Positions 17,219 through 63,682 of a DNA stretch of 64,000 bases are shown one piece after another. Every line of letters begins with the position of its first letter. The stretch's first letter is position 1. The position numbers were made by a program, and so were the translations under genes. The notes under the pieces were generated by a model. It was not told the origin of the DNA. It was given only the letters and a program-made list of their open reading frames with translations, and searched no databases. This DNA comes from Terriglobia bacterium (GTDB lineage Bacteria > Acidobacteriota > Terriglobia > Acidiferrales > UBA7541), in assembly GCA_020072785.1 (NCBI GenBank), contig JAIQGG010000008.1:1-64000 (forward strand), given 5' to 3'.

Positions 17219-17926
17219 ATGAGCTGGACCTGCGAACAAATCGAAACGAGCCTCAGCGATTACCTCGACGGCTTGCTCTCTCCCGCCGACCGCGAGGCTT
17301 TTCTCGCGCACGCCAGCTCCTGTGCGCAGTGCGCTCCGCTGGTAACCAGTCTCCCGCAGCTCCTGGCCGGACTTCACACTCTCGCGCCGGTGGAGACGCC
17401 CCCGCACCTCGTCTACAACATTCTCGACAAGACCCTCGGTCCGCGCGAATCGTCTTCCCCCTGGCGCTTCCTCCGCGATTTCCTGCGCGGCCTGGCGTCG
17501 CCGAAATTCGCTTATGGCGCCGCCTCCGTCCTCGCCACCTTGGCCGTGGTCCTGACCGCCGCGGGTTTCTCCTGGCGCAAGCCCCGCCTCGCGGAACTGC
17601 ACCCGGTTACCCTCTACCGCAGCGCCGACCGTCAGGCACACCTGGCCTACGCCCGCGGCTCCAAATTCATCAGCGATCTGCGCGTGGTCTATGAGATCCA
17701 GTCGCGTCTGCGCCCGGATACCGAGAACCCCGCCGCCCCGGAAAACTCCGCTCCACCCTCCGCTCCGCCATCGGGTCCGGACGACCAGCCGGGCATTTCC
17801 AACACTCCGCGGCATTTCAATCGAACTTACGGCAATCGCCCCGGCCTGACCGTTCTGGCGACCATCTTGACGCCCTTCAGCCAGTTGACCGCTTCGCGGT
17901 CACGCATGCAAAGGAGCCTCCCATGA
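17219..17926 (+). CDS. Zinc-finger anti-sigma factor, membrane anchored
   Basis: The 235-residue protein has an N-terminal anti-sigma zinc finger (CEQIETSLSDYLDG with HASSCAQC). One membrane segment lies at about residues 98-118 (FAYGAASVLATLAVVLTAAGF). A proline-rich periplasmic tail follows. It should hold the ECF factor at the membrane. The last codons are odd: a copy of the dispersed palindromic repeat at 17884-17908 is read through and encodes LTASRSRM, which suggests the C-terminus was extended or replaced by repeat insertion. The TGA stop overlaps the ATG of the next gene. Confidence 0.9.
   Translation: MSWTCEQIETSLSDYLDGLLSPADREAFLAHASSCAQCAPLVTSLPQLLAGLHTLAPVETPPHLVYNILDKTLGPRESSSPWRFLRDFLRGLASPKFAYGAASVLATLAVVLTAAGFSWRKPRLAELHPVTLYRSADRQAHLAYARGSKFISDLRVVYEIQSRLRPDTENPAAPENSAPPSAPPSGPDDQPGISNTPRHFNRTYGNRPGLTVLATILTPFSQLTASRSRMQRSLP
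17884..17908 (+). repeat. Dispersed palindromic repeat inside the anti-sigma gene end
   Basis: GTTGACCGCTTCGCGGTCAC followed by GCATG, taken here as the type copy. Stem TGACCGC (17886-17892) and GCGGTCA (17896-17902) pair perfectly around TTC. It is translated as part of the anti-sigma factor C-terminus. Confidence 0.9.
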
Positions 17927-18537
17927 ACTGCGCGGTCCATACGGAACACGAAGCCGTCGGCTACTGCCGCAACTGTGGCAAGGCCCTGTGCGCCGCCTGC
18001 ACGCGCCCGGTCCGCGACGTTCTCTACTGCGAGGACTGCCTCGCCGCGGTCATGGGCCATGCCGCTCCCCCCGCCGCTCCGGCCGCTCTGCCCCCGGCAG
18101 CTTCCGGCTCCAACCCAGCCGTGGCCTTTATTCTCGGCTTCTTTCCCGGCTTGGGCGCCATCTACAACGGCGAATACAATAAAGGGCTGATTCACATCCT
18201 TGTTTTCGCCGCACTCGTGATCGGTCTCAGCACCGTAACCAACGAGAACCTGGAGCCGGTTCTTGGTCTTTCCCTCGCCGGCTTCATCTTCTACATGGCC
18301 TTCGACGCCATGCGCACCGCGCAGGCCCGCCGCGCCGGTCAGGCTGCTCCCGATCCCCTCGAAACTTGGGTCAAGGAAAAACCCATCGGCGCCATTCTGC
18401 TGATCGTGCTGGGCGCGCTCTTCCTGTTGAGCAATTTTGGCTGGTTTCCCTGGGACCGCCTGGGACAGCTCTGGCCGCTGATTCTCATCGTGGCTGGGAT
18501 CCTGATGCTGCGCAAGCGCCTGGGACGCGCCGCGTGA
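17923..18537 (+). CDS. B-box zinc-finger membrane protein with TM2-like segment
   Basis: A 204-residue protein. The N-terminus is a B-box-type zinc finger, CAVHTEHEAVGYC then CGKALCAAC and CEDC. A proline/alanine linker follows, then several hydrophobic segments. The first pair, AVAFILGFFPGLGAIYNGEY, resembles the TM2 domain. A C-terminal pair (GAILLIVLGALFLLSNFGWF and LWPLILIVAGILMLRKR) resembles the LiaF-type membrane unit of the next two genes. The function is unknown. It overlaps the anti-sigma gene by four bases (ATGA) with AGGAG upstream, so the two are translationally coupled. Confidence 0.85.
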   Translation: MNCAVHTEHEAVGYCRNCGKALCAACTRPVRDVLYCEDCLAAVMGHAAPPAAPAALPPAASGSNPAVAFILGFFPGLGAIYNGEYNKGLIHILVFAALVIGLSTVTNENLEPVLGLSLAGFIFYMAFDAMRTAQARRAGQAAPDPLETWVKEKPIGAILLIVLGALFLLSNFGWFPWDRLGQLWPLILIVAGILMLRKRLGRAA

Positions 18538-18550
18538 GAGGAGTCTGACA

Positions 18551-18808
18551 ATGGCTGATCGAATCCGCTGTGCGTGCCAGCGCTGCATGCTGCACGGGCT
18601 GATGGGCCCGGCTGTGCTCATCACTCTGGGCGTGCTCTTTCTGCTCAACGAGTGGCGTGGCGACTATTTTGGCTTCCACTACACCTGGCCGGTCCTGCTG
18701 ATCGTCATCGGCCTGATCAAGCTGGCCGAATCGCTGGCCTCCACGGAAGGCCACGGCGCGGCCAGGGTGCAACCGCCGGCGCCGGGCAACCCGGGACAGG
18801 GGCGATAG
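18551..18808 (+). CDS. Small membrane protein, LiaF/DUF5668-like
   Basis: An 85-residue protein with two hydrophobic segments (LMGPAVLITLGVLFLLNEW and FHYTWPVLLIVIGLIKLAE). It matches the short two-helix unit found in LiaI/LiaF-type envelope-stress proteins and in both neighbouring genes. The N-terminus has three cysteines (CACQRC). Function is unknown. It lies 13 bases after the B-box gene and six bases before the DUF4097-type gene, so it is part of the ECF operon. Confidence 0.78.
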   Translation: MADRIRCACQRCMLHGLMGPAVLITLGVLFLLNEWRGDYFGFHYTWPVLLIVIGLIKLAESLASTEGHGAARVQPPAPGNPGQGR

Positions 18809-18814
18809 ATCCTC

Positions 18815-20167
18815 ATGGCCGCCAACCGCACACGCCGCAGTTCACTCTTCAGCGCCTTGGTACTGCTTCTCTTCGGCGTACTCTTTCTCATTCATAATTA
18901 CCGCGGCGGCCTCGACTTTGGCCACCTCTTCCGCCACTGGTGGCCCCTGCTCCTGATTCTCTGGGGGCTCACCAAGCTCTACGAACGCACCGCCGCCCGC
19001 CGCCTGGGCGCCGCCGGCTCCGGCGCCATCACCACCGGCGAAGTTTTTCTCGTGCTTCTGCTGCTGGCCCTCGTCGGCATTTTTGCCGCCAGCGATTTTG
19101 TTCTGCGGAAGAACCCCGAGATTGGCGACGTCTTCGGCAACTCCTACACCTACGACCTGGACGTCGCTCCCCGCGCCGTGCCCGCAAACGCACGCATCAC
19201 CATCCGCAACGGACGTGGCGATATCCGCGTGCGCGCAGGCGACACCGCGCAGATCCGCCTTTCCGCCAAGAAGAACATCCGCGCCTGGAGCAAGAGCGAA
19301 GCCCAGCGCTTGGCCGCTCCGGCCTCCCTGCAGATCGTTCAGGAGGGCGACGCCTACGAGGTCCGGCCCGCCGGCTACGATCCCGGCGACCGCCGCATCG
19401 CCATGGACCTGGACGTCGAGGTGCCGCGCAAGGCCATCCTCACTATCCGCAAGGAAGGAGGCAATGTGGAAGTTTCCGACGTCGCCGGAGAGATTGACAT
19501 CACCTCGCAGACGGGCGATATCGAAGTCCGCGAGGCGGGCTCCGACGTCAGCGTGGACCTTCGCCGCGGCGACGTGAAAGTTTCGGGCGTGAACGGGGAT
19601 GTAAAACTTTCCGGGCGGGGCGGCGAAGTCGAAGTGATCAACGCCACGGGCGGGCTGACGCTCGACGGCGAGTTCTACGGCCCGATCCGCGCGGAGAAGG
19701 TCGCCAAGGGCGTGCGTTTCATCTCCCACCGCACCGATTTGACGCTTACTCAGCTCGCCGGCCATCTCGAAGCCGGCTCCGGCAACCTGGACATCTTCGA
19801 TTCCACCGGCAACCTGACCCTGCGCACCAATTCCTACGACATCACCCTCGACAACGTCACTGGCAAGCTCAAAATCGACAACCGCGACGGCGACGTCAAG
19901 CTCCGCTTCGCCTCGCCCCCCAAGGAAGACGTCGAAATCACCAACAAGTCCGCGGGCATTACCCTCATGCTCCCCGCGGCTTCCGCCTTCACCATCGCGG
20001 CCGACTCCCACTCCGGCGACATCGACTCCGAATTCGACGCCGCCTCCCTCAAGAAGACCACCACCGAATCCGGCGACGCGCATCTCGAAGGTCAACTCGG
20101 CGCGCACGGCCCCAAAATCACCCTGAAGACCAGCTACGGCTCCATCGCCCTCCACAAGGGCACCTAA
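18815..20167 (+). CDS. DUF4097-type beta-solenoid envelope protein with LiaF-like membrane region
   Basis: The 450-residue protein begins with LiaF-like hydrophobic segments (LFSALVLLLFGVLFLIHN, HWWPLLLILWGLTKLY and VFLVLLLLALVGIFAASDFVL). Residues from about 120 to the end form a repetitive beta-strand domain with short repeats such as GGNVEVSDVAGEIDI, TGDIEVREAGSDV, GDVKVSGVNGDVKL and GNLTLRTNSYDITL. This is the pattern of the DUF4097/toast-rack putative adhesin fold, likely outside the cytoplasm. It is the last gene of the sigma/anti-sigma operon and is a plausible output or sensor of that envelope-stress system. No terminator was recognised after it. Confidence 0.85.
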   Translation: MAANRTRRSSLFSALVLLLFGVLFLIHNYRGGLDFGHLFRHWWPLLLILWGLTKLYERTAARRLGAAGSGAITTGEVFLVLLLLALVGIFAASDFVLRKNPEIGDVFGNSYTYDLDVAPRAVPANARITIRNGRGDIRVRAGDTAQIRLSAKKNIRAWSKSEAQRLAAPASLQIVQEGDAYEVRPAGYDPGDRRIAMDLDVEVPRKAILTIRKEGGNVEVSDVAGEIDITSQTGDIEVREAGSDVSVDLRRGDVKVSGVNGDVKLSGRGGEVEVINATGGLTLDGEFYGPIRAEKVAKGVRFISHRTDLTLTQLAGHLEAGSGNLDIFDSTGNLTLRTNSYDITLDNVTGKLKIDNRDGDVKLRFASPPKEDVEITNKSAGITLMLPAASAFTIAADSHSGDIDSEFDAASLKKTTTESGDAHLEGQLGAHGPKITLKTSYGSIALHKGT

Positions 20168-20268
20168 AAAGAGTTCACGAGTACAAGAGCCGGAAGAGTC
20201 CAGTCATTTGCAGTCACCGTCTCTTACACTCTCATGCTTTTGAACTCTTCTACTTTTTGCTTTTGAAC
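20168..20268. repeat. Intergenic CT/GA-rich tract with short inverted repeat
   Basis: The gap between the DUF4097 gene and convergent aroA is made of short CT- or GA-rich words, such as GTCTCTTACACTCTC and TTTTGAACTCTTCTAC. AGAGTTCA at 20170-20177 is the inverse complement of TGAACTCT at 20241-20248. A similar CT-rich tract occurs at 61607-61690. No gene or strong terminator was seen. Confidence 0.4.
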
Positions 20269-22664: not shown

Positions 22665-22700
22665 GTTCACCGCATTGCGGTCACACTTATCGGTGACCGC
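22665..22700 (+). repeat. Degenerate copy of the dispersed palindrome plus inverted repeat
   Basis: GTTCACCGCATTGCGGTCAC at 22665-22684 differs from the family core at a few positions. Its right arm GCGGTCAC (22677-22684) also pairs perfectly with GTGACCGC at 22693-22700 across eight bases. It lies between two convergent genes and could form a hairpin at the end of either transcript. Confidence 0.55.
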
Positions 22701-29062: not shown

Positions 29063-32000
29063 TCAGTTGACGACCAGCGTTACCGTTGCCCTGGACGTTG
29101 ACGCCCCTGACGTGCCGGTCACCGTAATCGTGTAAGTTCCCGCCGTCGTGCCGGTCGCTCCTCCCCCGCCGCCCCCGCCACTGCCACCACCGCAGCCCGC
29201 CGCCATGGCGGCAAGCAACAGGAGCAACCCTGCCAACGGCAGGGAAAATGCCAGAGCGTGCCGCGGCCGGCGCGCCACAGATACCGCGAAGAAGAGAACC
29301 AGAATGGCGAGAAGCCCGAGCGGGGCCCTGCGGCCGAGCGGACTATAGCGCCCGGGAAAACGCGGCGGCGGCAACGCGCCGCGCCGCGTGGTGGCCACGG
29401 TTACCGTCACGTTGGTGCTGCTGCCCAGTGTCACGGAGGTCGGATTGACCGAGCAGCTCGTCGCCGGCGCGGGCGAAGAGCAACTCAGCATCACGGTGCC
29501 GGTGAATGCGTTAGCCGGCGCGACCGCAATCGTATAGCTGGCCGAATTTCCGGCGGAGACCGTGACACTCGTAGGTGCCTGCGGGGTCAAAGAGAAGGGC
29601 GGCTGCCCAAACTGGAAATTGAGAACGCTCTTTCCGCCGAGCGCGATGGGGTTGGGATCGGGCGGGCCGAACGAGCTGACCATGATGTAGTAGGTCGTCC
29701 CGCCCGTGAGTGCTACCCCGCTCAATTGCGACTCGAGCACGATGCCCGGAGTGATGTCGTCGTTGCACCCGCCGGAAACGGCCGTCAGGCTGGCCTGCGA
29801 AGAACCGGTCCAGACCGAGAGGACGGAATCGTAGCTGCTTCCGATCGTGTCCAGATTCAACGTGCCGCCACTGCTCGGGGCCGTGAATTTGTACCAGATA
29901 GTGTTGTAGAGACCGTTTGCATAGGGGCCGTTATTCCCCCCCTGGCCACTGGTGAATTGATATACGCAAGCCGGAAGCGGATCCGCAGCCTCGGTCGTCG
30001 CGCCGGAGCTGTCCTTCGTGTCCGTATAGCTATTCACCGTAATGTTGATGGCGTTGGCGAAGTTGTCGTTCGGCGGTGCGGGCGCAACCACCGCAAAAGT
30101 CTTCGCGTTGGAAGCCCCGCCCCCTGGCGGCGGGTTCACCACGGTGATGTCGTCCGTGCTGCCGTAGGGCCCGAGGAGCGCGGCCGCAAGCTGCGCCTTG
30201 AGCGTCGTCGGCACACCCGTGGTATCCGTCACCGTGACATTCGCAGTCGAGCCGTTGAACGCCACCTGCGAACCGGAAGTGAAGTTTGTTCCGGTCAGCG
30301 TGATCGTCGCCGCTGCCGAACCTACAGTGACCTGCGCCGGCACAATGCTGGTAAGCGTAGGTGGGTTGCCCAGCACCGTAAACGTCAGCGCGTTGCTGGT
30401 ATTCGCGCCGGCAGTAACCGTAATCTTCGGTGTGCCACTCGCTGCTACCAGCGCCGCCGCGATTGTCGCCGTCAATTGCGTATCGCTCCCTCCGCCCTGC
30501 GTCACGTTTGTCGTCGAGCCATTCCACCGCACCGTACCGCCCGTCAGACCGCTTCCGGTGACCGTCAGGGTGAAAAGGCCATCGCCGGCATTGGCCTTGA
30601 AGGGTGCGATGGAACCTATCCGCAGGGCTGGTGTGCCCGCGGCAGGCCCCAGGTTGAGGTCCCAGACGCCGCGGCCGTGCGTTGCGGCCCGCAGGGTGCG
30701 CGAAGGATTGTGCAGCACCAGCGAGAGGATCTCCGAATTCGGCAGGGTGTTTGGCGCGCCCAGCACGGACCAGCTCGTGCCGCCGTCGGTGGTGAAAAAC
30801 GCGCCGACATCCGTGGCGATGTATAGCGTGTTATGCGTCGGATCGTCGGGGTCGATGACGATGTCGTTCACCGGAATGTCCGGAAGGGCGCCAGCGCCAG
30901 TGCCGCTTATATCTGTCCACGGATTCGCGGCCAGATTTGTCGCATCTGCACTCATGAAGACGTGGCCCTTGCCGTCGCAGATTATCGCCACATTGCTGCA
31001 GGTACCGAAGCCCGAAAACGCCACATAGGCTTTCTTCGAATTGGCGGGGTCTACGGCAACCTGCGTGATGCTGCGCCCCGGAAGAGCTGAGGTGGTCAGG
31101 CTCGTCCAGGTGCTGCCGCTATTGGTCGTGGCTTCGATCTCGCCGTTATCCGCGCCCGTGTAAATTGTCGTCGAGGCGCTGGGCGCAGCTGCAATCGCCG
31201 TCAGATTTCCGCCCGTCGTGCCGGAGCAACCGGCGGTATGGGCCGATGTGGTGACATCAGGCGAAATCGCATTCCAGGTGTTGGCGCCGTCCGTGGTCTG
31301 CCAGACGCGGCAGGTGCCGAAATAGATTGTCTGCGGATTGTTCTTGTCCAGCACCAGAGGAGGGATGAAGCTGCCGCGGTCCGTCGGATCGATCCCGGTG
31401 GTGGCCAAATAGCCCTTGCCCAGTATCCCGTCTCCCGCATAGGAAACGGCGATCACGAGAATGCCGCCGGGATTCGGAATGTACTCGCACTCCCCATACG
31501 TCGTGCTGGGAATTTGCGGATCGATGGCGGTAAAGCCGCCGTCGCAGCCCAGCCCCGTGTCCGTCCAGACCAGGCTGCCCGTATTGCCGGGATTATAAAG
31601 CTGCACGCCGTTGTCCTGCGTGCCGCCCAGCGCGAAATTCGGCGTCGAGGGGTGAATGGAAAGGCCGGGATAGAACTGCGTGATGTTCAGCGAGCCGTTC
31701 AGATTGTTCCAGTAGCCGCCGCTGACCGTGCCTTTCGGATCGTTGGTGCTCCAGACGCCGCCATCGTTGCCCACATAGAGAACGCTTCCGGTAGTGTTGA
31801 AGGCGAAGGCATGCGTATCCACATGCAGGGCATCCAAGGCGCCCGAGACGTTATTGCGGGAAATTTCCGTCCAGGTGGAACCACCATCTAGGGAGCGGAT
31901 GACCGTGGCGTTATTCGCCGCGCCCCCGGCGAATACCGTATTCGCGTCGGCCGGGTGCACGGCCAGCACCAGGTCGTAAAAGCATTGATCGTTGCAGAAT

Positions 32001-33418
32001 CCATTCGCAGCGTTCACCAGCGATGCCGTCAGTTGCGTCCAACTGGGAGTGGCGTTACTGGCGTTCGTCGTCTTGACCACGCCCAGCAGTTTGCTGGAGC
32101 TCGTGGAACTGTCCGCAATCGCCGCGTACAGCGTGTTGTTGTTGGAGGGAGCAATCGCCAGCGCGATTCGCCCGATCTTCGAGGCAGCGACGCCCGCGGG
32201 CAAGTTCTGCAGGGTCCAGGTGATCGTGCAGGACGTGACCGGGGCGCTGGATTTGTAGATGCCGTTATTGGAATCGCCGAAGGGAAACCCCAGAGCCGCC
32301 CATGCCGTCCCGTCGCTGCCGAAGGCCACGTCGGTTCCCGGATCTCCCGTCGCCGTCGGTGCGATGACGGGAAGCACGTGAGTCCAGTTCACCCCGCTGT
32401 CTGCCGAACACCACACCCCGGACTGCAACGCCGCCCCGCGGCCGCGGACCGCGGCGAGCAGGATATTGTTCGCACCTGCCTTGCGGTTCACCGCAATCGC
32501 GCCGATCATCGGCCCCGCGCGAGTGTCGTCCAGCGGAGGGTTACTGGGCAGGCCGAAAGCGGAAAACGTGTTGTCGCGGGTCCAGGTCGCGCCGCCGTTG
32601 GTGGACTTGAACACTCCGGCGCCGTAAATGTTGTCGCCGCCGAAATTGTCTTCGCCCGTACCCACGTAAACGACGGACGCTGCGCAAGTATGCGATGTGG
32701 GGTCGATGGCGATCGCGCCGACGGAGATCAGCGGCTGGTAATCGAAGAGCGGCGTCAATATCCCGCTGCCATTGGTCAGCTTCCAGACGCCGCCGTCGGC
32801 TCCGCCGAGAAAGAACGTATTGCCCGTCGCGTCGCAGGGGTCCACGGCTAGCGCGGTCACGCGCCCCGAGGTGTACGGCAGATTGAAGGTTGAAATTGTG
32901 GCCTGCGGGCCGATGGCCGCCCACGCCGCTCCGGTGCCGCTAGGCGGCGGCGCGAAACCGGGCCCGGTGCCGCTGCCGGGGGCCGCGAGTTGCGCGCTAC
33001 CCGAACCCGGGGCGCTCTGCGGCTGCACGGCCTGCAACTGCGCGCCCTGTATCGTGCCGCCCTGCGCCAACTGTTGCTGTTGCTGCATGCGGCGCACATG
33101 CGCCAGAGCCCGCTCGCGCGCCCCCGCGGGAATGAAGCCCAGGGGATAGGTGCGCGGGTGGAAGAACCACCGCTGGCGGCGCTGCAGAAAAGCCGCTCCT
33201 TCGCGCTCTTCGCCCGCCGCGTGCAGGGCGAGGATGCGGGGTCTTTCGGCCGTGGGTTTGCCGGCCGGGGGAGTCACCGCCGGCTTATCCTGCGCGCGCA
33301 AGCGCGGGGCGAACGAATCGCTGCCCAGGAGCAGCGCAGCAAGCAGCACCGCCATCCGACACAAGCGATTCATGTACATACGACGTGAGCCATCCAGTAC
33401 GGCGCGGTGCGGGTTCAT
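29063..33418 (-). CDS. Giant exported BNR/beta-propeller, IPT/TIG and Ig-like surface protein
   Basis: About 1450 residues. A signal peptide (RMAVLLAALLLGSDSFA) and a Gln-rich linker lead into a long BNR/sortilin-like propeller with blades such as TNGGATWTRDN, LDGGSTWTEIS, TNSGSTWTSL and TDGGTSWSVLG. Two IPT/TIG modules follow (FTLTVTGSGLTGGTVRWNGS and ITLTGTNFTSGSQVAFNGS). Next is a pre-peptidase-like module (TIWYKFTAPSSGGTLNLDT) and an Ig-like module. The C-terminus has two hydrophobic stretches, a Cys and poly-Gly run (AAGCGGGSGGG), and AGTYTITVTGTSG, a layout I associate with Acidobacteriota. Starts at 33478, 33418, 33379 and 33373 are possible; the first lies upstream of a dispersed repeat copy, so a downstream one is likelier. 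Confidence 0.85.
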   Translation of the reverse strand: MNPHRAVLDGSRRMYMNRLCRMAVLLAALLLGSDSFAPRLRAQDKPAVTPPAGKPTAERPRILALHAAGEEREGAAFLQRRQRWFFHPRTYPLGFIPAGARERALAHVRRMQQQQQLAQGGTIQGAQLQAVQPQSAPGSGSAQLAAPGSGTGPGFAPPPSGTGAAWAAIGPQATISTFNLPYTSGRVTALAVDPCDATGNTFFLGGADGGVWKLTNGSGILTPLFDYQPLISVGAIAIDPTSHTCAASVVYVGTGEDNFGGDNIYGAGVFKSTNGGATWTRDNTFSAFGLPSNPPLDDTRAGPMIGAIAVNRKAGANNILLAAVRGRGAALQSGVWCSADSGVNWTHVLPVIAPTATGDPGTDVAFGSDGTAWAALGFPFGDSNNGIYKSSAPVTSCTITWTLQNLPAGVAASKIGRIALAIAPSNNNTLYAAIADSSTSSSKLLGVVKTTNASNATPSWTQLTASLVNAANGFCNDQCFYDLVLAVHPADANTVFAGGAANNATVIRSLDGGSTWTEISRNNVSGALDALHVDTHAFAFNTTGSVLYVGNDGGVWSTNDPKGTVSGGYWNNLNGSLNITQFYPGLSIHPSTPNFALGGTQDNGVQLYNPGNTGSLVWTDTGLGCDGGFTAIDPQIPSTTYGECEYIPNPGGILVIAVSYAGDGILGKGYLATTGIDPTDRGSFIPPLVLDKNNPQTIYFGTCRVWQTTDGANTWNAISPDVTTSAHTAGCSGTTGGNLTAIAAAPSASTTIYTGADNGEIEATTNSGSTWTSLTTSALPGRSITQVAVDPANSKKAYVAFSGFGTCSNVAIICDGKGHVFMSADATNLAANPWTDISGTGAGALPDIPVNDIVIDPDDPTHNTLYIATDVGAFFTTDGGTSWSVLGAPNTLPNSEILSLVLHNPSRTLRAATHGRGVWDLNLGPAAGTPALRIGSIAPFKANAGDGLFTLTVTGSGLTGGTVRWNGSTTNVTQGGGSDTQLTATIAAALVAASGTPKITVTAGANTSNALTFTVLGNPPTLTSIVPAQVTVGSAAATITLTGTNFTSGSQVAFNGSTANVTVTDTTGVPTTLKAQLAAALLGPYGSTDDITVVNPPPGGGASNAKTFAVVAPAPPNDNFANAINITVNSYTDTKDSSGATTEAADPLPACVYQFTSGQGGNNGPYANGLYNTIWYKFTAPSSGGTLNLDTIGSSYDSVLSVWTGSSQASLTAVSGGCNDDITPGIVLESQLSGVALTGGTTYYIMVSSFGPPDPNPIALGGKSVLNFQFGQPPFSLTPQAPTSVTVSAGNSASYTIAVAPANAFTGTVMLSCSSPAPATSCSVNPTSVTLGSSTNVTVTVATTRRGALPPPRFPGRYSPLGRRAPLGLLAILVLFFAVSVARRPRHALAFSLPLAGLLLLLAAMAAGCGGGSGGGGGGGATGTTAGTYTITVTGTSGASTSRATVTLVVN

Positions 33419-33440
33419 GGGCGAAAAAGACCTCATTAGT

Positions 33441-33460
33441 GTGACCGCGAACCGGTCAAC
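33441..33460 (-). repeat. Dispersed palindromic repeat, copy upstream of the surface-protein gene
   Basis: On the minus strand GTTGACCGGTTCGCGGTCAC, one base different from the family core. It lies 22 bases before the chosen start of the giant surface-protein gene, in the space where its leader would be. Confidence 0.75.
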
Positions 33461-33609
33461 ACTCAGGGCGCTCTGCATTCAGATGGTCCGGAGGCGGCGG
33501 TGGTTGGCCGGGCCACCCAGCAAGAAAGCCACCCCGCGAGAGGTTACACCACTCTCTGCGTGGCAACAAAGTAAAGAATAGGCGCTCTCGTGAGGAAATA
33601 AACTGGCGT

Positions 33610-34340: not shown

Positions 34341-34472
34341 TCTCGGGACCCACTGACCATGCTAGAGTTGGCATTCGATGCGGTCAATAGTACCGGGTCG
34401 TAAGATACATAGCTGTACCCAGGGACAGCGCACCCGGCCGCTCGCCGCTTGGATTCAGACACGGACATCTGT

Positions 34473-34496
34473 ATGCGCGACCGCGAAGCGGTCAAC
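34473..34496 (-). repeat. Dispersed palindromic repeat abutting the hpnK start
   Basis: On the minus strand the copy reads GTTGACCGCTTCGCGGTCGC followed by GCAT. It ends two bases before the TTG start of the YdjC/HpnK-like gene, so it replaces the usual ribosome-binding region. Confidence 0.85.
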
Positions 34497-39602: not shown

Positions 39603-40781
39603 TCAGGAACCGGACTTCGGGGCGACGTGCGAGCCGTTGAGGAGCCGGAGCTGCCCGTCGGTCACCACGGTTTCGCCGGCGTGCAGCCCTGCTTCCACGA
39701 TGGTTTCCCCGCCTACGGTGCGCCCCACGGTAACGTTGCGCATCTCCGCGGTGTTGTCGGGCTTGACCACGAAGACGAACGAGCCGCTCTGGCTAGTGCT
39801 GATCGCCTGCGACGGCACGACTAGGGCATGCGGCTGGGTCGTCAGCGTCAGGACCACGGTGACAAACTGCCCGGGCCACAATCGCCGCTGCGTGTTGGCA
39901 AAGGTGGCCTTCAGCCGGATCGTGCCGGTGGTGTAGTCCACGACGTTGTCCACAAAAGAGAGCGTGCCCTGTTCCGAGACATTCGGCTGATCAGGAATCA
40001 TAGCCGTCACGCGCATTTTGCGCTCGGCGTGGTAGCGCTTGACGTCGGCAAGATTCTGCTCGGGAATCGCAAACGTCACATAAATGGGCGTGATCTGGTT
40101 GATAGTCACCAGAATGGGCACGTCGTTGGCCTTGGTCAGGTTGCCGGGGCGGACCAGCACGCTGCCCGTGCGCCCGTTGATCGGCGAGCGGATTTCGCAA
40201 TACTGCAGATTCAGCCGCGCCGATTCGATGGCCGCGCGGTCGGACTGCACCACGGCTTCCTGTGCCTCGGCGTCGGCGCGTTGCGTGTCGTACTGCAGCT
40301 TGGGGACAATGCCCTGCTCGAAGAGGTTCTGATAGCGCTCGGCCAGCACGCGCGCATTCTGCGCTTTGGCCTGGTCGCGGGCGAGATCCGCCTGCGCCTG
40401 CTTCAAGGCCACTTCAAACGGGCGCTTGTCGATTTCGAACAGCAGCTCGCCCTTGTGGACGTCCTGGCCCTCCAGGAAATGCACAGCCATCACCGGGCCG
40501 GTCACCTGGGCCTTGATGGACACGCTGGCGAGGGCCTCCACATTCCCGATGGCGCGCAGCTCGACCGGAACGTCCTTCTCCACGGCCTGGGCGACCACCA
40601 CCGGCACGGCGGGCGCTGCCGGAGCCGCGGCCTGCGGCTTCCCGCAGCCGGCAAACAACAGCGCGGCGAACCCCAGACCCACAGCGGCCAGCGCGGGGCG
40701 CCTTACGGCGGCAGGCAGCCGCCGGACATTTCGAAACAAGGTCGACCGCTTCGCGGTCATGCATACGATTGAGGGCATCAT
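39603..40781 (-). CDS. RND efflux periplasmic adaptor, lipoprotein
   Basis: The 392-residue membrane-fusion protein has a lipobox (LLFAGC) after its hydrophobic signal. It has the lipoyl/barrel halves SVSIKAQVTGPVMAVHFLEG and IRSPINGRTGSVLVRPGN, and a coiled-coil between them (EVALKQAQADLARDQAKAQN). It links the pump to an outer-membrane channel. The start is uncertain: ATG 40781 or 40778 lie upstream, while ATG 40760 lies inside a dispersed palindromic repeat, so the repeat encodes MTAKRST. It is the first gene of a two-gene operon. Confidence 0.93.
   Translation of the reverse strand: MMPSIVCMTAKRSTLFRNVRRLPAAVRRPALAAVGLGFAALLFAGCGKPQAAAPAAPAVPVVVAQAVEKDVPVELRAIGNVEALASVSIKAQVTGPVMAVHFLEGQDVHKGELLFEIDKRPFEVALKQAQADLARDQAKAQNARVLAERYQNLFEQGIVPKLQYDTQRADAEAQEAVVQSDRAAIESARLNLQYCEIRSPINGRTGSVLVRPGNLTKANDVPILVTINQITPIYVTFAIPEQNLADVKRYHAERKMRVTAMIPDQPNVSEQGTLSFVDNVVDYTTGTIRLKATFANTQRRLWPGQFVTVVLTLTTQPHALVVPSQAISTSQSGSFVFVVKPDNTAEMRNVTVGRTVGGETIVEAGLHAGETVVTDGQLRLLNGSHVAPKSGS
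40741..40764 (+). repeat. Dispersed palindromic repeat at the adaptor N-terminus
   Basis: The copy reads GTCGACCGCTTCGCGGTCAT, followed by GCAT. On the minus strand it lies within the first codons of the RND adaptor gene and includes an in-frame ATG at 40760. Confidence 0.82.
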
Positions 40782-41744: not shown

Positions 41745-42422
41745 ATGTCACGCATCGTTTCCATTCTCGGCGGCACCGGACCCGAAGGTTCGGGGCTCGC
41801 TTATCGCTGGGCGCGCGCCGGCGAGCACATTGTCATCGGCTCGCGCGACGCGCAGCGCGCCGCCGAAGCCGCGCGGCAACTCAAGGCCCGCATCGGCGCC
41901 GCCGCCAGCGTGGAGGGTGCGGACAACGCCGCCGCCGTGGCCAAGGGCGACATCGTGGTGCTCACCGTGCCCTTCGCCGGCCACGCCGCGCTGCTGAAAT
42001 CGCTCAAAACCGCCTGGAAGCCCGGCGCTATCGTCATCGACACCACCGTGCCGCTGGCCGCCACTGTCGGCGGGCCTCCAACGCGCATGCTCGGGGTCTG
42101 GCAGGGTTCCGCGGCGCAGCAGACGCAGGAGCTCGTCCCCGCGGGCGTCTCCGTCGTCGCTGCGTTTCAGAACCTCGGCGCGGAGATCCTGGCCACCGAT
42201 GCGCCGGTGGATTGCGACGTTTTGGTGTGCAGCGACGACGAAAAGGCTAAGCAGGCGGCCTCCGAGCTGGCGCTGAAGATTCCCGGCGCGCGCGCGCTCA
42301 ACGGCGGCAAACTGGAAAACGCGCGCATCGTGGAATCGCTGACCGCGCTGCTGATCGGGTTGAATATCCGTTACAAAGTGCACAGCGCGGGGATTCGCTT
42401 TACCGGACTGCCGGTGAAGTAG
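41745..42422 (+). CDS. npdG: NADPH-dependent F420 reductase
   Basis: The 225-residue enzyme transfers hydride between NADPH and coenzyme F420. The N-terminal Rossmann motif is SILGGTGPEGSGLAYRWARAG, and the NADP-phosphate site follows at VIGSRDAQRAAEAA. Later segments KPGAIVIDTTVPL and VVAAFQNLGAEIL fit the F420:NADP oxidoreductase family. The C-terminal segment ARALNGGKLENARIVESLTALLIGLN is also conserved in it. The start has GGGGAG upstream. Its stop codon overlaps the first base of a dispersed repeat. It is convergent to the cofD-cofG-cofE genes. Confidence 0.93.
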   Translation: MSRIVSILGGTGPEGSGLAYRWARAGEHIVIGSRDAQRAAEAARQLKARIGAAASVEGADNAAAVAKGDIVVLTVPFAGHAALLKSLKTAWKPGAIVIDTTVPLAATVGGPPTRMLGVWQGSAAQQTQELVPAGVSVVAAFQNLGAEILATDAPVDCDVLVCSDDEKAKQAASELALKIPGARALNGGKLENARIVESLTALLIGLNIRYKVHSAGIRFTGLPVK

Positions 42423-42446
42423 TTGACCGCTTTGCGGTCACGCATG
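42422..42446 (+). repeat. Dispersed palindromic repeat at the npdG stop
   Basis: GTTGACCGCTTTGCGGTCAC followed by GCATG. The first base belongs to the npdG stop codon. Together with the next copy it fills most of the 54-base gap between npdG and cofD. Confidence 0.85.
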
Positions 42447-42448
42447 AA

Positions 42449-42472
42449 GTTGATCGCTTCGCGGCCGCGCAC
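42449..42472 (+). repeat. Second, degenerate tandem copy of the palindromic repeat
   Basis: GTTGATCGCTTCGCGGCCGC, then GCAC, follows the first copy after two bases. The stem keeps pairing potential with one changed arm. The pair may act as a two-way transcription block between the convergent genes. Confidence 0.7.
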
Positions 42473-42476
42473 CACG

Positions 42477-43448
42477 TTATAACGCGAGGAGCGCGCGGGC
42501 GAGTTTGCGCTTCTGCGCCAGCGTGCTCATCACCGTGGGGATCACCGCTACCTCCATCCCCAGCGAGCGGATCGAGGTAGCCTGCGCCCGGTCCGCGGGA
42601 TCCACCACAAACGTACCCGTGAAATCGGCGTAGAGCCGCGCCACCCCGCGCGCGGAAACTTCGTAGCCCAGTTGCGCCAGCATGCGGTCTGAGGGGCCCT
42701 TCAGCGACTTCCCCCCGACGATCGGGCACACCGCGACCACGTCCTTCTTGCGCGCCTGCAGCGCCTCGCGCACTCCCCGCACCGCCAGGATTGGTCCGAT
42801 GCTGATCAGCGGATTGCTCGGGCAGATGATGATCCGCTGCGCCTCGCGAATGGCTTCCAGCACGCCCGGGGCGGGCGCAGCAGTTTCCACGTTTTCGAAG
42901 CGGATGCCGCGCACCACCGGCTCGGCGCGGCGTTTCACCAGATACTCCTGAAAGTGCAGCGGCCCCTCGTTCGAATCGATGATCGTGGGCACCGGCTGGT
43001 TGGACATCGGCAGGATGCGCGACTTCACTCCCAGCGCGAGGCGGATCGCCTGGGCCGCCTCGGCCAGCGTCCTCCCCTCGGCGAGCAGCGCGGTGCGGTG
43101 GAGGTGCGTGGCGAGATCGCGGTCGCCGAGGTTGAACCATCCCTCGCGGCCGTACGCGCGCAGCCGCTCCAGCACGTGAAATGTCTCCGCCGGAAAGCCC
43201 CAGCCCTTGGCCGCGTCCACGATCCCGGCCAGCGTGTAGGTGACGATGTCCAGGTCCGGCGAGATGCGCAGCCCGTGCAGGACGATGTCGTCGCCCGTAT
43301 TCACAATGACGTCCAGCTTGACCGGGTCGCACACCGCATACAGCCCGAGCAGAAGCTTCGAGGCGCCCACGCCGCCAGCCAGCGCGGCAAGTTTCAGGGA
43401 TGGCCGCCGCGCCCGCGGCACTTTTTTCCTCCCGGAGACGCCGCTCAT
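42477..43448 (-). CDS. cofD: 2-phospho-L-lactate transferase-type enzyme (F420 synthesis)
   Basis: The 323-residue CofD protein joins the deazaflavin Fo to a phospholactyl-type group from a GPPG-like donor. Family motifs are LAGGVGASKLLLGLYAV, VNTGDDIVLHGLRISPDLDIVTYTL, WFNLGDRDLATHLHRT, ICPSNPLISIGPIL and VVAVCPIVGGKSLKGP. The donor may be 2-phospholactate, phosphoenolpyruvate or 3-phosphoglycerate, which cannot be read here. The ATG overlaps the cofG stop by four bases. Confidence 0.95.
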   Translation of the reverse strand: MSGVSGRKKVPRARRPSLKLAALAGGVGASKLLLGLYAVCDPVKLDVIVNTGDDIVLHGLRISPDLDIVTYTLAGIVDAAKGWGFPAETFHVLERLRAYGREGWFNLGDRDLATHLHRTALLAEGRTLAEAAQAIRLALGVKSRILPMSNQPVPTIIDSNEGPLHFQEYLVKRRAEPVVRGIRFENVETAAPAPGVLEAIREAQRIIICPSNPLISIGPILAVRGVREALQARKKDVVAVCPIVGGKSLKGPSDRMLAQLGYEVSARGVARLYADFTGTFVVDPADRAQATSIRSLGMEVAVIPTVMSTLAQKRKLARALLAL

Positions 43449-58251: not shown

Positions 58252-58262
58252 CTCTCCCGTAG

Positions 58263-58452: not shown

Positions 58453-58803
58453 TCAACTTTTCATCCGCAGGATCAATCCGTATAGGGCAAACCCCAGCCC
58501 GGCCAGAAACAACAACGGTGTGAGGTATTCGAACACCACCGGGCTGATTGGAATCGGCAGCGTCAGTGCGCTATAACCACCGGCAAAGAAATGCACCACC
58601 GCGGCCAGCAGCATGTACAGCAGACCCCGCCGCACTTCCCGGCGCCCGTCCGATCCCGCAGGCGCGCTCGGCGCCGCAACTTTCTTGAGTTCCGGCAGTG
58701 CTTCGCGGCAATACGGGCACGTCGGGCGCGGCCCGGTCACCATTTTTCCGCAATACACGCACTGCCGCTTCATATCGGCCTGGCTCTGCCAAGGAGAACT
58801 CAT
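58453..58803 (-). CDS. Small zinc-ribbon membrane protein
   Basis: A 116-residue protein with an N-terminal zinc ribbon (CVYCGKMVTGPRPTCPYC) and two hydrophobic segments (LLYMLLAAVVHFFAGGYSAL and VFEYLTPLLFLAGLGFALYGLIL). The function is unknown. The start could be 58803, with AGG seven bases upstream, or 58773 (MKRQCVYC); the longer form is listed. It is a third membrane protein in this window with an N-terminal treble-clef-type motif. Confidence 0.72.
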   Translation of the reverse strand: MSSPWQSQADMKRQCVYCGKMVTGPRPTCPYCREALPELKKVAAPSAPAGSDGRREVRRGLLYMLLAAVVHFFAGGYSALTLPIPISPVVFEYLTPLLFLAGLGFALYGLILRMKS

Positions 58804-59176
58804 GTCGTGCCTGCCGCCTTTCCAGCCAAAGCCGTACCCAGCCCCATGCCCGCTCGCACCGCGTGCCCGGATCCCCGATCCCAAACAAGTTCTAGCCTAG
58901 GTTCGCCCCGCCGAATTCGTCAAGCTTCTTCGCGCCGGAGAGTAAACACACCTCCGCCTCGTCATCACAATCTGCTGCTGAATTTTTTAAAGGGAAAAAC
59001 GCCCGACTGCGTGTCCAGATCCGCTCCCGCGCCGGCACCCTGCGGATTGCCGTCGAGTCGCCGGAAGAATCGGTGCACATCGCGTGCCCGCTGGCCGCCC
59101 GTTGACCGCTTCGCGGTCGCTCAAAACATCGACGGCCTTTCCTCGGAGCTGGAGGCCCGCCGCCCCGCGGCCCGAC
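58804..59176. other. Intergenic region with one dispersed repeat
   Basis: 373 bases between the zinc-ribbon gene start and the stop of the ferredoxin-NADP reductase gene. Apart from the palindromic repeat at 59101-59122 I see no gene, RNA or terminator. Short open frames on both strands have no support. Confidence 0.5.
59101..59122 (+). repeat. Dispersed palindromic repeat, intergenic copy
   Basis: GTTGACCGCTTCGCGGTCGC then TC. The stem TGACCGC/GCGGTC- is kept, with one arm-end base changed. It lies 54 bases beyond the stop of the ferredoxin-NADP reductase gene. Confidence 0.82.
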
Positions 59177-59956
59177 TCAATGCCCGGCCGCGTCCGTCGA
59201 CGGGATGAAGTACACTTCCTCGCTGATCGTCTCTTTCTTCCACCCCGCGCGCTGCAGGATCCCCCGCCCGTGGTCCACCATGTTCGGATGCCCGCACAGG
59301 TACGCGCTGGTCTTTGCCGGATCCAGCCCCCACTGGTCGGTGTACTTGCGGATGATGTCGTCCACCCGCCCCGTCTCCCCCTTCCACGAGGGGTCTTCCC
59401 ACGGCCGGCTCACCGTCGCCACGTACTTCAGCCACGGCACTTCCGCAGCGATGCTCTCCAGTTCCTCGCGGAACCCGAATTCGTTCGAGTGGCTCGCTCC
59501 CTGCAGCAGGTAAAACTGGTGGTCGCCCGGCGTCTTCCCCTTCTTCCAGTCGTGATGAAACGTCCGGACGTAGCTGACAAACGGCGCTACCCCGGTCACC
59601 GTCGCCAGCAGCAGGTGGTTCGTCCGCCCGCTCTTCAGGTCCAGCGTGAAGCGGCCCTTGGCGATGCGCCGGATGCTCAGCGTCTCCCCGGGCTTCTTGT
59701 CGTAGAGATGCGGCGTCAGGGTCCCCTCGCGCACCAGTTCGATGAAAAACTCCAGATCCTGCTCATACGGCGAAGACGCGATCGAATACGCCCGCTCGAT
59801 CAGTTTCCCGTTCTTTTCTTCGCCCAGAGTGGCGTACTGCCCCGCCACGTAATGGAAATGGCCCCCGGGGTGCACTCGCATCACCCACAGATTCGGGGAA
59901 AGCTCCCTCCGGCCCGCGATCTTGGCCTTGTAGTGTTTCTCCGATGACTGCGTCAT
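59177..59956 (-). CDS. fpr: Ferredoxin/flavodoxin--NADP+ reductase
   Basis: The 259-residue protein is a bacterial-type ferredoxin-NADP reductase that moves electrons between NADPH and ferredoxin or flavodoxin. Motifs are YVAGQYATLGE and the FAD-binding RAYSIASSPYE. The NADP site follows as TVTGVAPFVSYVRTFHH, with AYLCGHPNMVDHGRGILQRAGW near the C-terminus. Start ATG 59956 is set by AGGAG nine bases upstream; the frame extends 21 codons above without support. It stands alone, with the orphan ABC permease gene upstream on the same strand. Confidence 0.92.
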   Translation of the reverse strand: MTQSSEKHYKAKIAGRRELSPNLWVMRVHPGGHFHYVAGQYATLGEEKNGKLIERAYSIASSPYEQDLEFFIELVREGTLTPHLYDKKPGETLSIRRIAKGRFTLDLKSGRTNHLLLATVTGVAPFVSYVRTFHHDWKKGKTPGDHQFYLLQGASHSNEFGFREELESIAAEVPWLKYVATVSRPWEDPSWKGETGRVDDIIRKYTDQWGLDPAKTSAYLCGHPNMVDHGRGILQRAGWKKETISEEVYFIPSTDAAGH

Positions 59957-60114: not shown

Positions 60115-61236
60115 CTATTCGTAGGCCAGCGCCACTACCGGATCGTAACCCGCCGCCCGGACCGCCGGATAGACTGCTCCGGCGGATGCCCCCAGCAGCG
60201 CCAGGGCAATGGAAGAAAAAACCCAGCCCGGGGAGATCAGGATCATCAGACTCGGCGAGGTCTGCTTCAGAACCGCCTCCGCCAGAAACGTGATTACGAT
60301 GCCCAGCGCGCTCCCGCTCACGGCGATCACCAGCGTCTCCGTGAGCAGCAGCCGCACAATGTCGAAACGCGAAAAACCCAGCGCCTTCAGAATCCCGATC
60401 TCGCGCGTGCGCTCCTGCACCATGGTGTGCATCGTCAGCAGCACCACCAGAAAGCTGATCACCAGCCCCAGCCCCACCATGGTCCGGATAAATGGTTTCA
60501 ACTCCGGCAGCTTCGAGGAATTCATCAGCGTCACGTACTCCGTCGTCGAGCGGATGCTGTTCTTCGGCAGCAGCTTCACGATCTCGGCCCGCGTCCCCGC
60601 CGTGTCTCCCTTGCTGCGCACGTAGAACATGGACACCTTTTTCTCCGCGCTGGCGATGTCCTGCGCCGTGCTCAACGGGATGAAGAACCGCGCCCCCTTC
60701 CCGTGCGTCACAATTCCCGAAATCCGGAAGTTGTGATTCAGCAGCGTGATCGTATCCCCCACCTTCAGATGCTTCGTCTGCGCCACGATATCGTCGGCCA
60801 GCGCCTCGTCCGCACTCGCAAACGGCCCCCCTTCCTGGTACAGGAATCCCTGGCTCAAGGCGTTGAACCGCCGGTAGTCGATCCCATACACCACCGCGAA
60901 CTGCTTCTGATCCATTAGGATCAGCGTCGGCGCCACTTCATCCACGCCGGGCAGCTCCGCGATCGTGTCCCCGACCGATTCCTGCATCACCGCGCTCGAG
61001 AGGGCGAAGAAAATAGAGGAGTTGGGTGGCTGCACCAGGATGTCGGCGCCCACCCCTTCGACGCGCTTGCCCCATTCGGAGACCACCCCCGACGTCAGCC
61101 CCGCGATCATCAGCACCAGAATCACCTGAATGGCAATTGCCGTGATGGCCAGCACGGAGCGAAGCGGCCGGGCCAACAGATTGCCCCACAGCATCTGGAA
61201 GCGCGAGAAGTACACTTCAGTGTGTTCAGCGGTCAT
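60115..61236 (-). CDS. MacB/FtsX-type ABC transporter permease
   Basis: The 373-residue protein has the MacB-like layout. There is an N-terminal membrane helix (LRSVLAITAIAIQVILVLMIAGL) and a periplasmic core domain with SVGDTIAELPGVDEVAPTLI and ALADDIVAQTKHLKVGD. A C-terminal FtsX unit of three helices follows, with MVQERTREIGILKALGFSRFDIVRLLL. No ATPase gene is adjacent, so the partner is elsewhere or the gene has been separated. The start at 61236 lies 12 bases after a dispersed repeat with no clear ribosome binding site; ATG 61194 is an alternative. Confidence 0.88.
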   Translation of the reverse strand: MTAEHTEVYFSRFQMLWGNLLARPLRSVLAITAIAIQVILVLMIAGLTSGVVSEWGKRVEGVGADILVQPPNSSIFFALSSAVMQESVGDTIAELPGVDEVAPTLILMDQKQFAVVYGIDYRRFNALSQGFLYQEGGPFASADEALADDIVAQTKHLKVGDTITLLNHNFRISGIVTHGKGARFFIPLSTAQDIASAEKKVSMFYVRSKGDTAGTRAEIVKLLPKNSIRSTTEYVTLMNSSKLPELKPFIRTMVGLGLVISFLVVLLTMHTMVQERTREIGILKALGFSRFDIVRLLLTETLVIAVSGSALGIVITFLAEAVLKQTSPSLMILISPGWVFSSIALALLGASAGAVYPAVRAAGYDPVVALAYE

Positions 61237-61248
61237 TTGTATGTAGGC

Positions 61249-61268
61249 GTGACCGCGAAACGGTCAAC
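61249..61268 (-). repeat. Dispersed palindromic repeat upstream of the ABC permease
   Basis: On the minus strand GTTGACCGTTTCGCGGTCAC, one base different from the core. It ends 12 bases before the ABC permease start codon. Confidence 0.82.
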
Positions 61269-61398
61269 GCGGTTCTGTGCGTACTCTAACATCCCTGTTT
61301 CGAGCGGGTCAAAAAAACCGCGAGCAAAAAATGGCAGGGAGCGTCCCATGTGCAAGCCGTGTGCCGAACCCGCTGTCCGTATTTTTCTCTTCTGTAAA

Positions 61399-61418
61399 TT
61401 TCAACACTTGTGTTGAAA
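61399..61418. promoter_or_regulatory. Perfect palindrome, possible operator
   Basis: TTTCAACAC (61399-61407), a two-base centre TT, then GTGTTGAAA (61410-61418). It is a 9-base perfect inverted repeat in an AT-rich context about 160 bases upstream of the ABC permease start. Form and size fit a dimeric regulator site; no regulator gene is nearby. Confidence 0.45.
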
Positions 61419-61708
61419 ACCATGTGGAAAAGCACGCCTCGTTCCCCGCTAACTCTACGCGGCTCAACACCCTGATGCGGTTTGCACAATTAGAGGGCAA
61501 TGCCCAAGCAAGAAAGTTTCATCGCGTGACAGTTGGATCGTGAAAAGGTCAGGAACGGAACAAAACATTCCGCTGGGCAAAAAAAGTCGCTGCACACTGC
61601 CGCACGATTTGCTCTCTTCAACGGTTCCCCGGTTCAACCGTTCAACTCTTTCACTCTTCGACTCTTACTCTCTTGAACTCTGCGGCTTTTTTCTCTGCCG
61701 CCCGCGCC

Positions 61709-62125
61709 TCAGTACCAGCGCGGTGGCTTTTCGAGGTGTATTTGAATGGTCTGCTGCGGGTCGGTGATCTCGTACCAGCGTCCGTAAGTCTTCCAGCCTT
61801 CCGCAATCACCTGGATCAGAACTTTCCCGAGCGGCGCATCGGGCACGTGCGTGATGCCCTCGCGGTTGGTCTTGACGTTCAGCTCGTACTTCTTGTCCTT
61901 GATGAGCTTGCGCTCGATGACGAACTTCACGTACACGCTGGCATTTTCCACGGGAACGTTCTTCTCGCCGCCGGTGACTTCGATCGTCAGGCGGTTCAGC
62001 GCAGCGGGCGCTTGGGCTTTGGGCTTGCCCGCCGCCTGGTTCTTGTCTTGCGCACGTCCGGATCCGGCCGGCAGGGCCAAGACTCCCAGAATCATGATCG
62101 TGTAAAAGAGAGAAGACCGTCTCAT
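61709..62125 (-). CDS. Exported transthyretin-fold (carboxypeptidase regulatory-like) protein
   Basis: A 138-residue protein with a signal peptide (FYTIMILGVLALPAGSGRAQ) and a beta-sandwich of the carboxypeptidase-regulatory/transthyretin type. The features seen are VPVENASVYVKFVIER, ELNVKTNREGITHVPDAPLG and LIQVIAEGWKTYGRWYEI. Such single domains are common in Acidobacteriota and related phyla and have no known role. GGAG eight bases upstream supports ATG 62125; the longer frame is not conserved. Confidence 0.75.
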   Translation of the reverse strand: MRRSSLFYTIMILGVLALPAGSGRAQDKNQAAGKPKAQAPAALNRLTIEVTGGEKNVPVENASVYVKFVIERKLIKDKKYELNVKTNREGITHVPDAPLGKVLIQVIAEGWKTYGRWYEITDPQQTIQIHLEKPPRWY

Positions 62126-62474
62126 TTGCTGGACTCCATCCTCCACGGCCGGGCTATGCAGGTCAAGTGCCGCGTATACTCTTTTCGGATGCTCCCAGAA
62201 ACGCGCCGGCTGCTTGCCCGCGGGCATCGCCCCTTTCGATCTCTTGTCGCGCCGGCTCTGGGACAGCATCCTCTTGCCGCGGCACGGGCCAAATCGGACT
62301 ACGGCCCCTTTTTCCCTGCAATTGACTCTCCGCGACGGCTCTTGTAACTTCTCAACACTCTGCTGGTCCGGAAGTCGAGCGGGCTTGCCAGCCTGTACAT
62401 CCCGGGCGTTCCGTCATTTGCGGATTCGAGAACGCGGCGCCGCGCCTCTGGCGTCGCAACGCGAGGAGAACACC
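62126..62474. other. Intergenic region between divergent genes, with a weak promoter-like pair
   Basis: 349 bases between the transthyretin-fold gene and the cystathionine enzyme gene. TTGACT at 62322-62327 and TAACTT at 62345-62350 are 17 bases apart and could be a weak sigma-70 promoter for the latter. No known SAM riboswitch pattern was recognised. Confidence 0.4.
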
Positions 62475-63617
62475 ATGGGCTTTGCCACAGATGCCATCCA
62501 CGTCGGTCAGGAGCCGGATCCCTCCACCGGGGCGATCGTCGCGCCGATCTACCAGACCTCCACCTACGTGCTGCAGGAGTTCGGCAAGTACACCGCCGGC
62601 TACGACTACGCCCGCACCAACCATCCCAACCGCAAGGCCCTCGAGCGCTGCGTGGCTAAGCTCGAAGGCGGCCAGAACGCCTATGTCTTCTCCTCCGGCA
62701 TGGCCGGCATCGATGCCGTCTTCCGCCTGCTCCGCCCCGGCGACCACATCGTCGTCTCCGAGGCCGTCTATGGCGGCGTCTATCGCCTTTCCACGCAGTT
62801 CCTCGTGCAGTTCGGCCTGGAATTCAGCTTCGTGGACACTTCCTCGCAGGACAAACTGGCCGCGGCCCTGCGCCCCAACACCAAAATGATCTACCTCGAG
62901 ACCCCCACCAACCCCACCATCATTCTTTCCGACATCGCCTCCACCGCCGCTCTCGCCAACGCCCGGGGCATCACCCTGGTCGTGGACAACACCTTCCTCA
63001 GCCCCTACCTGCAGAATCCCCTGGCTCTCGGCGCGCACATCGTGGTCCATTCCATGACCAAGTACTTGAACGGCCACAGCGACGCCACCGGCGGCGCGGT
63101 CGTCCTCACCCGCCCCGCCGATGCCGAGAAAATCTACTTCATCCAGCGCTCCGCGGGCTCCGGTCTCGCCCCCATGGATTGCTTCCTCGTCTCCCGCGGC
63201 ATCAAGACCTTGGCCGTGCGCATGCTCCAGCACAATGCCAACGGTATCGCCGTCGCCAAGCACCTCGACTCCCACCCCAAAATCAAGAAGGTCTACTACC
63301 CCGGACTGCCCTCGCACCCGCAGCACGAACTCGCCCGCAAACAGCAGAAGGGTCCCGGCGCCATGCTCTCCTTTGAACTGGGCTCCGCCGAAGCCGCACG
63401 CGCCCTGCTCAACAACGTAAAACTCTGCTCCCTCGCCGAAAGCCTTGGTGGCGTCGAGACCCTCATCTCCCACCCCGCCTCCATGACCCACGCTTCCATT
63501 CCCGCCGAGATTCGCAAGAACATCGGCATCACCGAAGGACTCGTCCGCCTCTCCGTCGGCATCGAAGACGTCGCAGACCTCATCGCCGACCTCGACCAGG
63601 CCCTGCTGTACATCTAG
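62475..63617 (+). CDS. Cystathionine gamma-synthase/gamma-lyase family PLP enzyme
   Basis: The 380-residue enzyme is of the Cys/Met metabolism family. K196 in SMTKYLNGHSDATGG binds PLP. YARTNHPNRKALERC, FSSGMAGIDAVFRLL, VVDNTFLSPYLQNPL and AESLGGVETLISHPASMTH cover the rest of the active site. Synthase (from an O-acyl-homoserine and cysteine) and lyase (cystathionine to cysteine) cannot be told apart by eye. The ATG at 62475 has AGGAG upstream, within an open frame that begins earlier. It ends before the convergent cutA gene. Confidence 0.92.
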   Translation: MGFATDAIHVGQEPDPSTGAIVAPIYQTSTYVLQEFGKYTAGYDYARTNHPNRKALERCVAKLEGGQNAYVFSSGMAGIDAVFRLLRPGDHIVVSEAVYGGVYRLSTQFLVQFGLEFSFVDTSSQDKLAAALRPNTKMIYLETPTNPTIILSDIASTAALANARGITLVVDNTFLSPYLQNPLALGAHIVVHSMTKYLNGHSDATGGAVVLTRPADAEKIYFIQRSAGSGLAPMDCFLVSRGIKTLAVRMLQHNANGIAVAKHLDSHPKIKKVYYPGLPSHPQHELARKQQKGPGAMLSFELGSAEAARALLNNVKLCSLAESLGGVETLISHPASMTHASIPAEIRKNIGITEGLVRLSVGIEDVADLIADLDQALLYI

Positions 63618-63662
63618 CCGCCGGCGAAAAAAGGGGAGTCTGTCGTTCTGTGCCCATCCGAT

Positions 63663-63682
63663 GTTGACCGCTTTGCGGTCAC
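63663..63682 (+). repeat. Dispersed palindromic repeat between the cystathionine gene and cutA
   Basis: GTTGACCGCTTTGCGGTCAC, one base from the core. It lies 46 bases beyond the cystathionine-enzyme stop and 74 bases from the cutA stop, so it could end both transcripts. Confidence 0.85.

Follow-up and report, generated by a model that had tools for sequence, protein, structure and literature searches.

A mobile 27-bp palindromic repeat family with an RWNGA target motif in a genus of Acidobacteriota

The closest known kinds of element to the repeat described here are the cyanobacterial SDR elements, REPs and the Rickettsia RPEs. The SDRs of Nostoc are reportedly 21-27 nt long, hairpin-forming, dispersed and recently mobile, with no enzyme of their own, and an RNA intermediate is said to have been proposed for their movement. 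RPEs are much longer than 27 bp. Among REPs, families with GTAG and with CGTC tags have been described, and RPEs, like the CGTC repeats, end in a different tag (PMC3733652). In Pseudomonas fluorescens, single REPs are considered defunct (PMC3116915), and that article cites the work on SDR elements by Elhai et al. (2008; Genome Res 18:1484).

The repeat unit and its copies in the window

The initial annotation of the window (the whole 64-kb stretch of DNA analyzed here) described ten copies of a short palindrome, lying on both strands between genes or at gene ends and absent from the first 17.8 kb. A search of the window with the 17-bp core TGACCGCTTCGCGGTCA, allowing at most 3 mismatches, yielded 13 strand matches, which correspond to 10 places since three places match on both strands, and these are the ten positions annotated. 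Shuffled versions of the window yielded a mean of 0.62 core matches at this threshold and a maximum of 3. Positions 1-17.8 kb are indeed without copies, and both orientations occur. Counting across the source genome (G000; 3.73 Mb in 11 contigs), which had been proposed as a check, gave ~300 copies of the palindrome, or 302 matches with at most 2 mismatches (159 and 143 by strand), against 0 and 1 for the reversed pattern used as a control at the same threshold. The palindrome family is real and far above chance.

The unit was first annotated as 20 bases long but is exactly 27 bp, GTTGACCGCTTCGCGGTCAC-RCATANA, and occurs singly or in arrays where one unit follows the other head to tail every 27 bp. 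The logo of single copies (GTTGACCGCTTYGCGGTCAC RCATANA) comprises a 7-bp stem, a TTC loop, a GTTG tag of which every base is present in at least 90% of single copies, and a less conserved tail, with one hairpin per unit. Stem pair 3-19 covaries, with T-A to C-G double changes in 7 distinct units, a result reached by 1 of 5000 shuffles; covariation at the remaining stem pairs is weak. Folded as single-stranded DNA, both strands score better than shuffles (z about -3.3 to -3.5). A single unit is present at 71 of 106 sites. Spacings within arrays are 27 bp in 39 of 41 cases and 26 bp in the other 2, orientation being constant, and a first survey of 67 sites contained one cluster of mixed orientation. 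Because tails are only somewhat more alike within one array (3.2 differences in 7 bases) than between random units (4.1 in 7), arrays seemingly grow by both insertion and duplication.

All ten copies in the window match the core. The first, a plus-strand unit GTTGACCGCTTCGCGGTCACGCATGCA followed by AAGGAG (17884-17910), lies inside the 3'-terminal codons of a gene for a zf-HC2 (anti-sigma-like) protein (17219-17926), and the ribosome-binding site for the following gene comes just 3' of it. A degenerate plus-strand unit, GTTCACCGCATTGCGGTCACACTTATC, is intergenic (22665-22691). On the minus strand, GTTGACCGGTTCGCGGTCACACTAATG (33434-33460) falls in the 5' region of the gene at 29063-33478, and GTTGACCGCTTCGCGGTCGCGCATACA, followed by GATGT (34470-34496), falls between genes. 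The plus-strand unit GTCGACCGCTTCGCGGTCATGCATACG (40741-40767) is at the 5' end of an RND adaptor gene (39603-40781). Both copies annotated at 42422 and 42449 are present, although they are not separate elements: they form one head-to-tail array of two units on the plus strand (42422-42448 and, degenerate, 42449-42475). The gene at 41745-42422 takes the last base of its TAG stop codon from the first G of the first unit, and the second unit ends 1 bp short of a CofD gene on the opposite strand (42477-43448). The plus-strand unit GTTGACCGCTTCGCGGTCGCTCAAAAC, followed by ATCGA (59101-59127), is probably intergenic, as no Pfam family matches the ORF that overlaps it (58591-59208). Finally, GTTGACCGTTTCGCGGTCACGCCTACA on the minus strand (61242-61268) lies just 5' of an FtsX/MacB-like gene (60115-61236), and GTTGACCGCTTTGCGGTCACCCAGAAT on the plus strand, followed by GAGGT (63663-63689), lies ~46 bp 3' of a Cys/Met PLP-enzyme gene. 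Rfam matched the window only at a tRNA gene (8900-8973, minus strand).

Other identities were considered for the repeat. A terminator or attenuator was rejected as its main identity on the grounds that copies stand in both orientations, some of them inside genes, and that Rfam matched only the tRNA in the window. A CRISPR was rejected since the arrays consist of contiguous 27-bp units without spacers, and an integron attC site, which the GTT start might suggest, since the right flank does not start with TT.

Distribution, insertion sites and target motif

The hosts are soil bacteria of one Acidobacteriota genus, within which the 302 matches of the source genome are accompanied by 308 in a sister species (G007) and 133 in G005, which is likely to be AA85; most other genomes have fewer than 20. 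When 84,980 species were scanned for exact 20-mers, 82 stretches were retrieved, almost all of them belonging to MAGs of Acidobacteriota (SRVP_26; gp2 AA85, AA86 and AA95), and viral contigs gave no 20-mer match. The exceptions were one contig each in Paenarthrobacter and Blastocatellia, which are likely chance matches, and one Nitrospirae MAG contig (VBOL01000189.1), which is probably misbinned, judging by repeat flanks like those of Acidobacteria AA85.

The sister species belongs to the same genus and shares ~90% identical DNA with the source genome. With flanks aligned, exactly 27 bp are absent from it at C1:134032, C1:139681, C1:144881 and C2:899341 of the source genome, 54 bp at C1:139845 and 81 bp at C2:66828. 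The insertion sites are intact and empty in the sister, and target duplication is absent. The more distant outgroup G009 is also empty at C1:134032, cleanly, and at C1:139681, in a rougher alignment, so these two insertions are gains. Other sites hold copies common to both species. The evidence for insertion is limited to clean alignments, several comparisons being messy through diverged intergenic DNA. Array lengths differ between genomes by multiples of 27 bp (27, 108 and 162 bp), and at C2:229236 seven near-identical units are found in place of one, a difference that is due to slippage. The 27-bp element is almost certainly mobile, and it ranks among the smallest such elements observed. The original proposal of a palindromic family that is dispersed, mobile and present in high copy was right.

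The bases 3' of the unit fit RWNGA. The fourth base is G at 82 of 106 sites (p 1e-20), and RWNGW is found in 52 of 106 right flanks against a background of 2.7% further downstream; the same right-flank motif was replicated in AA85, an independent genome. The left end of the unit, GTTGA, itself fits RWNGA, so that one unit can be the target of the next, which can account for the head-to-tail 27-bp arrays. Guide-target pairing, examined as tail versus target, gave weak covariation signals only, among 72 tests, with no visible pairing, and a comparison of orientation with GC skew, which is dominated by local gene strand, gave no clear signal of the replication-strand bias expected from a lagging-strand mechanism. 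Several parS-like TGTTCCACGTGGAACA sites surround one 27-mer copy at ~113.8 kb of C1, not far from gyrB, and the replication origin is probably near there. Long stretches of C2 (~302-382 kb and 502-662 kb) are free of the repeat and are possibly recent acquisitions or dense gene blocks.

Intergenic enrichment, a further check proposed at the outset, is evident in that 79 of the 106 sites are intergenic (~20% expected), 8 overlap gene ends and 19 are intragenic. The placement between genes or at gene ends holds for the window, whereas genome-wide about one sixth of sites lie inside a called gene. We would like to note that these calls come from a simple codon-usage caller made for this analysis with uncurated start sites, and N-terminal cases are less certain. 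In several cases the unit is immediately followed by a ribosome-binding site or contributes bases to a stop codon (window 42422; C2:899341). The codon phase is the same at 16 of the 19 intragenic sites (p 7e-6 against one third; 2e-3 against two open phases); the triosephosphate isomerase and hydantoinase sites look native, and without both the phase preference has p = 5e-5 against one third. An intragenic copy adds nine residues, VDRFAVT.. or ..DREAVN, for instance in TilS and GyrB (protein names at these sites were assigned by reading the sequences), and the TilS and YdjM-like proteins of the sister species lack exactly these nine. Most insertions would survive between genes or at gene ends, and some in-frame insertions in proteins may survive because 27 bp makes nine codons and 4 of the 6 frames are stop-free.

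Candidate enzymes and mechanisms

The source genome encodes three Y1 proteins (C2:747449, C1:420614 and C1:581615), each of which exceeds the NCBIfam cut-off for REP-associated tyrosine transposase (RAYT), and the sister species encodes one (C59:61346). Y1 proteins are present in all three highest-copy genomes and are of RAYT type in both that were checked with NCBIfam. Three of the four RAYT-type genes in the source genome and its sister stand between inverted repeats (GGGTGCCCCA../..TGGGGCACCC) and resemble the TIR-flanked transposases described in Acidobacteria (PMC3733652). The fourth (1258-2170 in G000:C1:419114-422428) has ~five copies of GTAG-GC-GCCGGGCTTTAGCCCGGC around it, and its locus is a complete REPtron of a family other than the 27-mer. 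In the outgroup G009, where 27-mers are few, there is instead a classic REP family of GTAG type (GTAGCCGCCCTCTTCAGAGGGCGG, 10 copies in 238 kb). The initial annotation had looked to a RAYT gene flanked by the same palindrome; this was found for 0 of 4 RAYT genes (three in the source genome, one in the sister), and at every Y1 locus examined the 27-mer is absent from the ends of the Y1 gene. A RAYT linked to the 27-mer was accordingly rejected: what flanks the Y1 genes examined is TIRs or another REP, of GTAG type. Across the genus, the number of Y1 copies shows no correspondence to repeat number, and G025 has 30 repeat matches and no Y1 match in an assembly that is 85% complete. A Y2 transposase was also rejected as the mover, Y2_Tnp having no match in the source genome or the sister. 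RAYT-type Y1 enzymes are the sole candidate mover found.

Our preferred reading, to which we give an even chance, is that the 27-mer is a non-autonomous mobile element inserted next to RWNGA and moved in trans by a host HUH (Y1) enzyme. The bottom strand of the element would be organized as TCNWY^TNTATGYG-[TGACCGC GAA GCGGTCA]-AC^. An HUH (Y1) endonuclease acting in trans, most likely a host enzyme of RAYT type, would recognize the hairpin in single-stranded DNA and cut at two places, behind TCNWY in the flank and behind the corresponding TCAAC at the 3' end. The 27-nt strand would then be pasted behind another TCNWY, in IS200/IS605 fashion. A new unit can adjoin an old one because TCAAC is itself a TCNWY-type site; 27-bp arrays would arise in this way, and slippage would then alter their length. 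That a Y1 enzyme moves the 27-mer in trans is argued by exclusion and by the logic of ends and target, and the odds seem to us about even. The mechanism is weakened by the finding that a GTAG to GTTG change abolishes cleavage by the TnpA-REP of S. maltophilia (PMC8266576), as well as by the lack of a linked Y1 gene among those examined, of agreement between Y1 and repeat numbers and of a clear strand bias.

Another kind of enzyme may instead be responsible: a tyrosine recombinase, for instance, could recombine the RWNGA core of a 27-bp circular form with RWNGA sites in the genome. The RWNGA-22 bp-RWNGA layout would also be expected from a circle with a short core, but a double-stranded circle of 27 bp would be physically strained, and we regard this route as unlikely. 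Quite unlikely, in our estimation, is an ordinary REP family that obeys the usual REP pairing and movement rules and whose RAYT has disappeared or diverged from its cognate repeat. The size, copy number and intergenic bias are REP-like and RAYTs are present, and to this extent the REP/RAYT reading of the initial annotation stands, with three RAYT-type Y1 transposases in the source genome outside the window; the GTTG tag, the lack of inverted pairs and the activity of single units do not fit it. An RNA intermediate, in which a transcript of the hairpin enters DNA by copying or splicing, as reportedly proposed for cyanobacterial SDR elements, would account for the SDR-like size class, the clean insertion without target duplication and the stable covarying hairpin. 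Nevertheless, RVT_1 has no match in the source genome (98.9% complete) or the sister (96%), the two highest-copy genomes, a reverse transcriptase was rejected as the mover on this basis, and we consider the RNA route decidedly improbable. It is very improbable that there is no dedicated mobility and that ancient repeats came to differ between species via deletion, slippage and gene conversion: slippage clearly alters array length (1 versus 7 units at C2:229236) and array neighbors are somewhat more alike than random units, but single units are absent from sister and outgroup with flanks intact, ~300 copies in each of two species compare with 4 matches in the nearest low-copy relative, and a target motif exists.

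Comparison with known mobile repeats

It is an unsettled question whether a lone hairpin of the REP kind is able to move and which enzyme would move it; in Pseudomonas, single REPs are regarded as dead remnants. The comparison of two close species catches single 27-bp units in movement, with their ends and target motif defined, which makes the 27-mer, very small for a mobile element, a ready test for RAYT function. The in-frame insertions show that short peptides can be added to important proteins without destroying them. A tentative and somewhat doubtful further reading is that these are 27-nt mobile hairpins whose own end is the target motif, which move by an unrecognized single-strand mechanism and are tuned to spread a nine-residue peptide through the proteome; the nine codons, the stop-free frames and the codon-phase preference are the features behind it.

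By analogy, the 27-mer appears to behave like a very small non-autonomous element of IS200/IS605 or SDR type. Like IS200/IS605 elements, it lacks a target duplication, and next to one of its ends stands a specific short site similar to the opposite end; it differs in having one hairpin rather than one at each end, and no autonomous partner with these ends was found. With REPs and BIMEs of the GTAG superfamily it shares a short perfect palindrome, a four-base foot tag, hundreds of intergenic copies and a genome with RAYT genes, and it is, as REPs are, a high-copy, mostly extragenic palindrome within 20-40 bp. In contrast, its tag is GTTG and not GTAG, it has no linked RAYT and the single unit moves. 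The moving unit of a REPIN is two inverted REPs, whereas the 27-mer occurs as single units or same-orientation arrays, and, unlike CGTC-tagged REPs, its consensus has no CGTC at the end. RPEs resemble it as palindromic repeats inserted in frame in protein genes. The SDRs are matched in size (27 bp within 21-27 nt), hairpin formation, dispersal and clean species-specific insertion; the 27-mer belongs to another phylum and has another sequence, and is distinguished by its defined RWNGA target, its self-adjacent arrays and its in-frame insertions in proteins.
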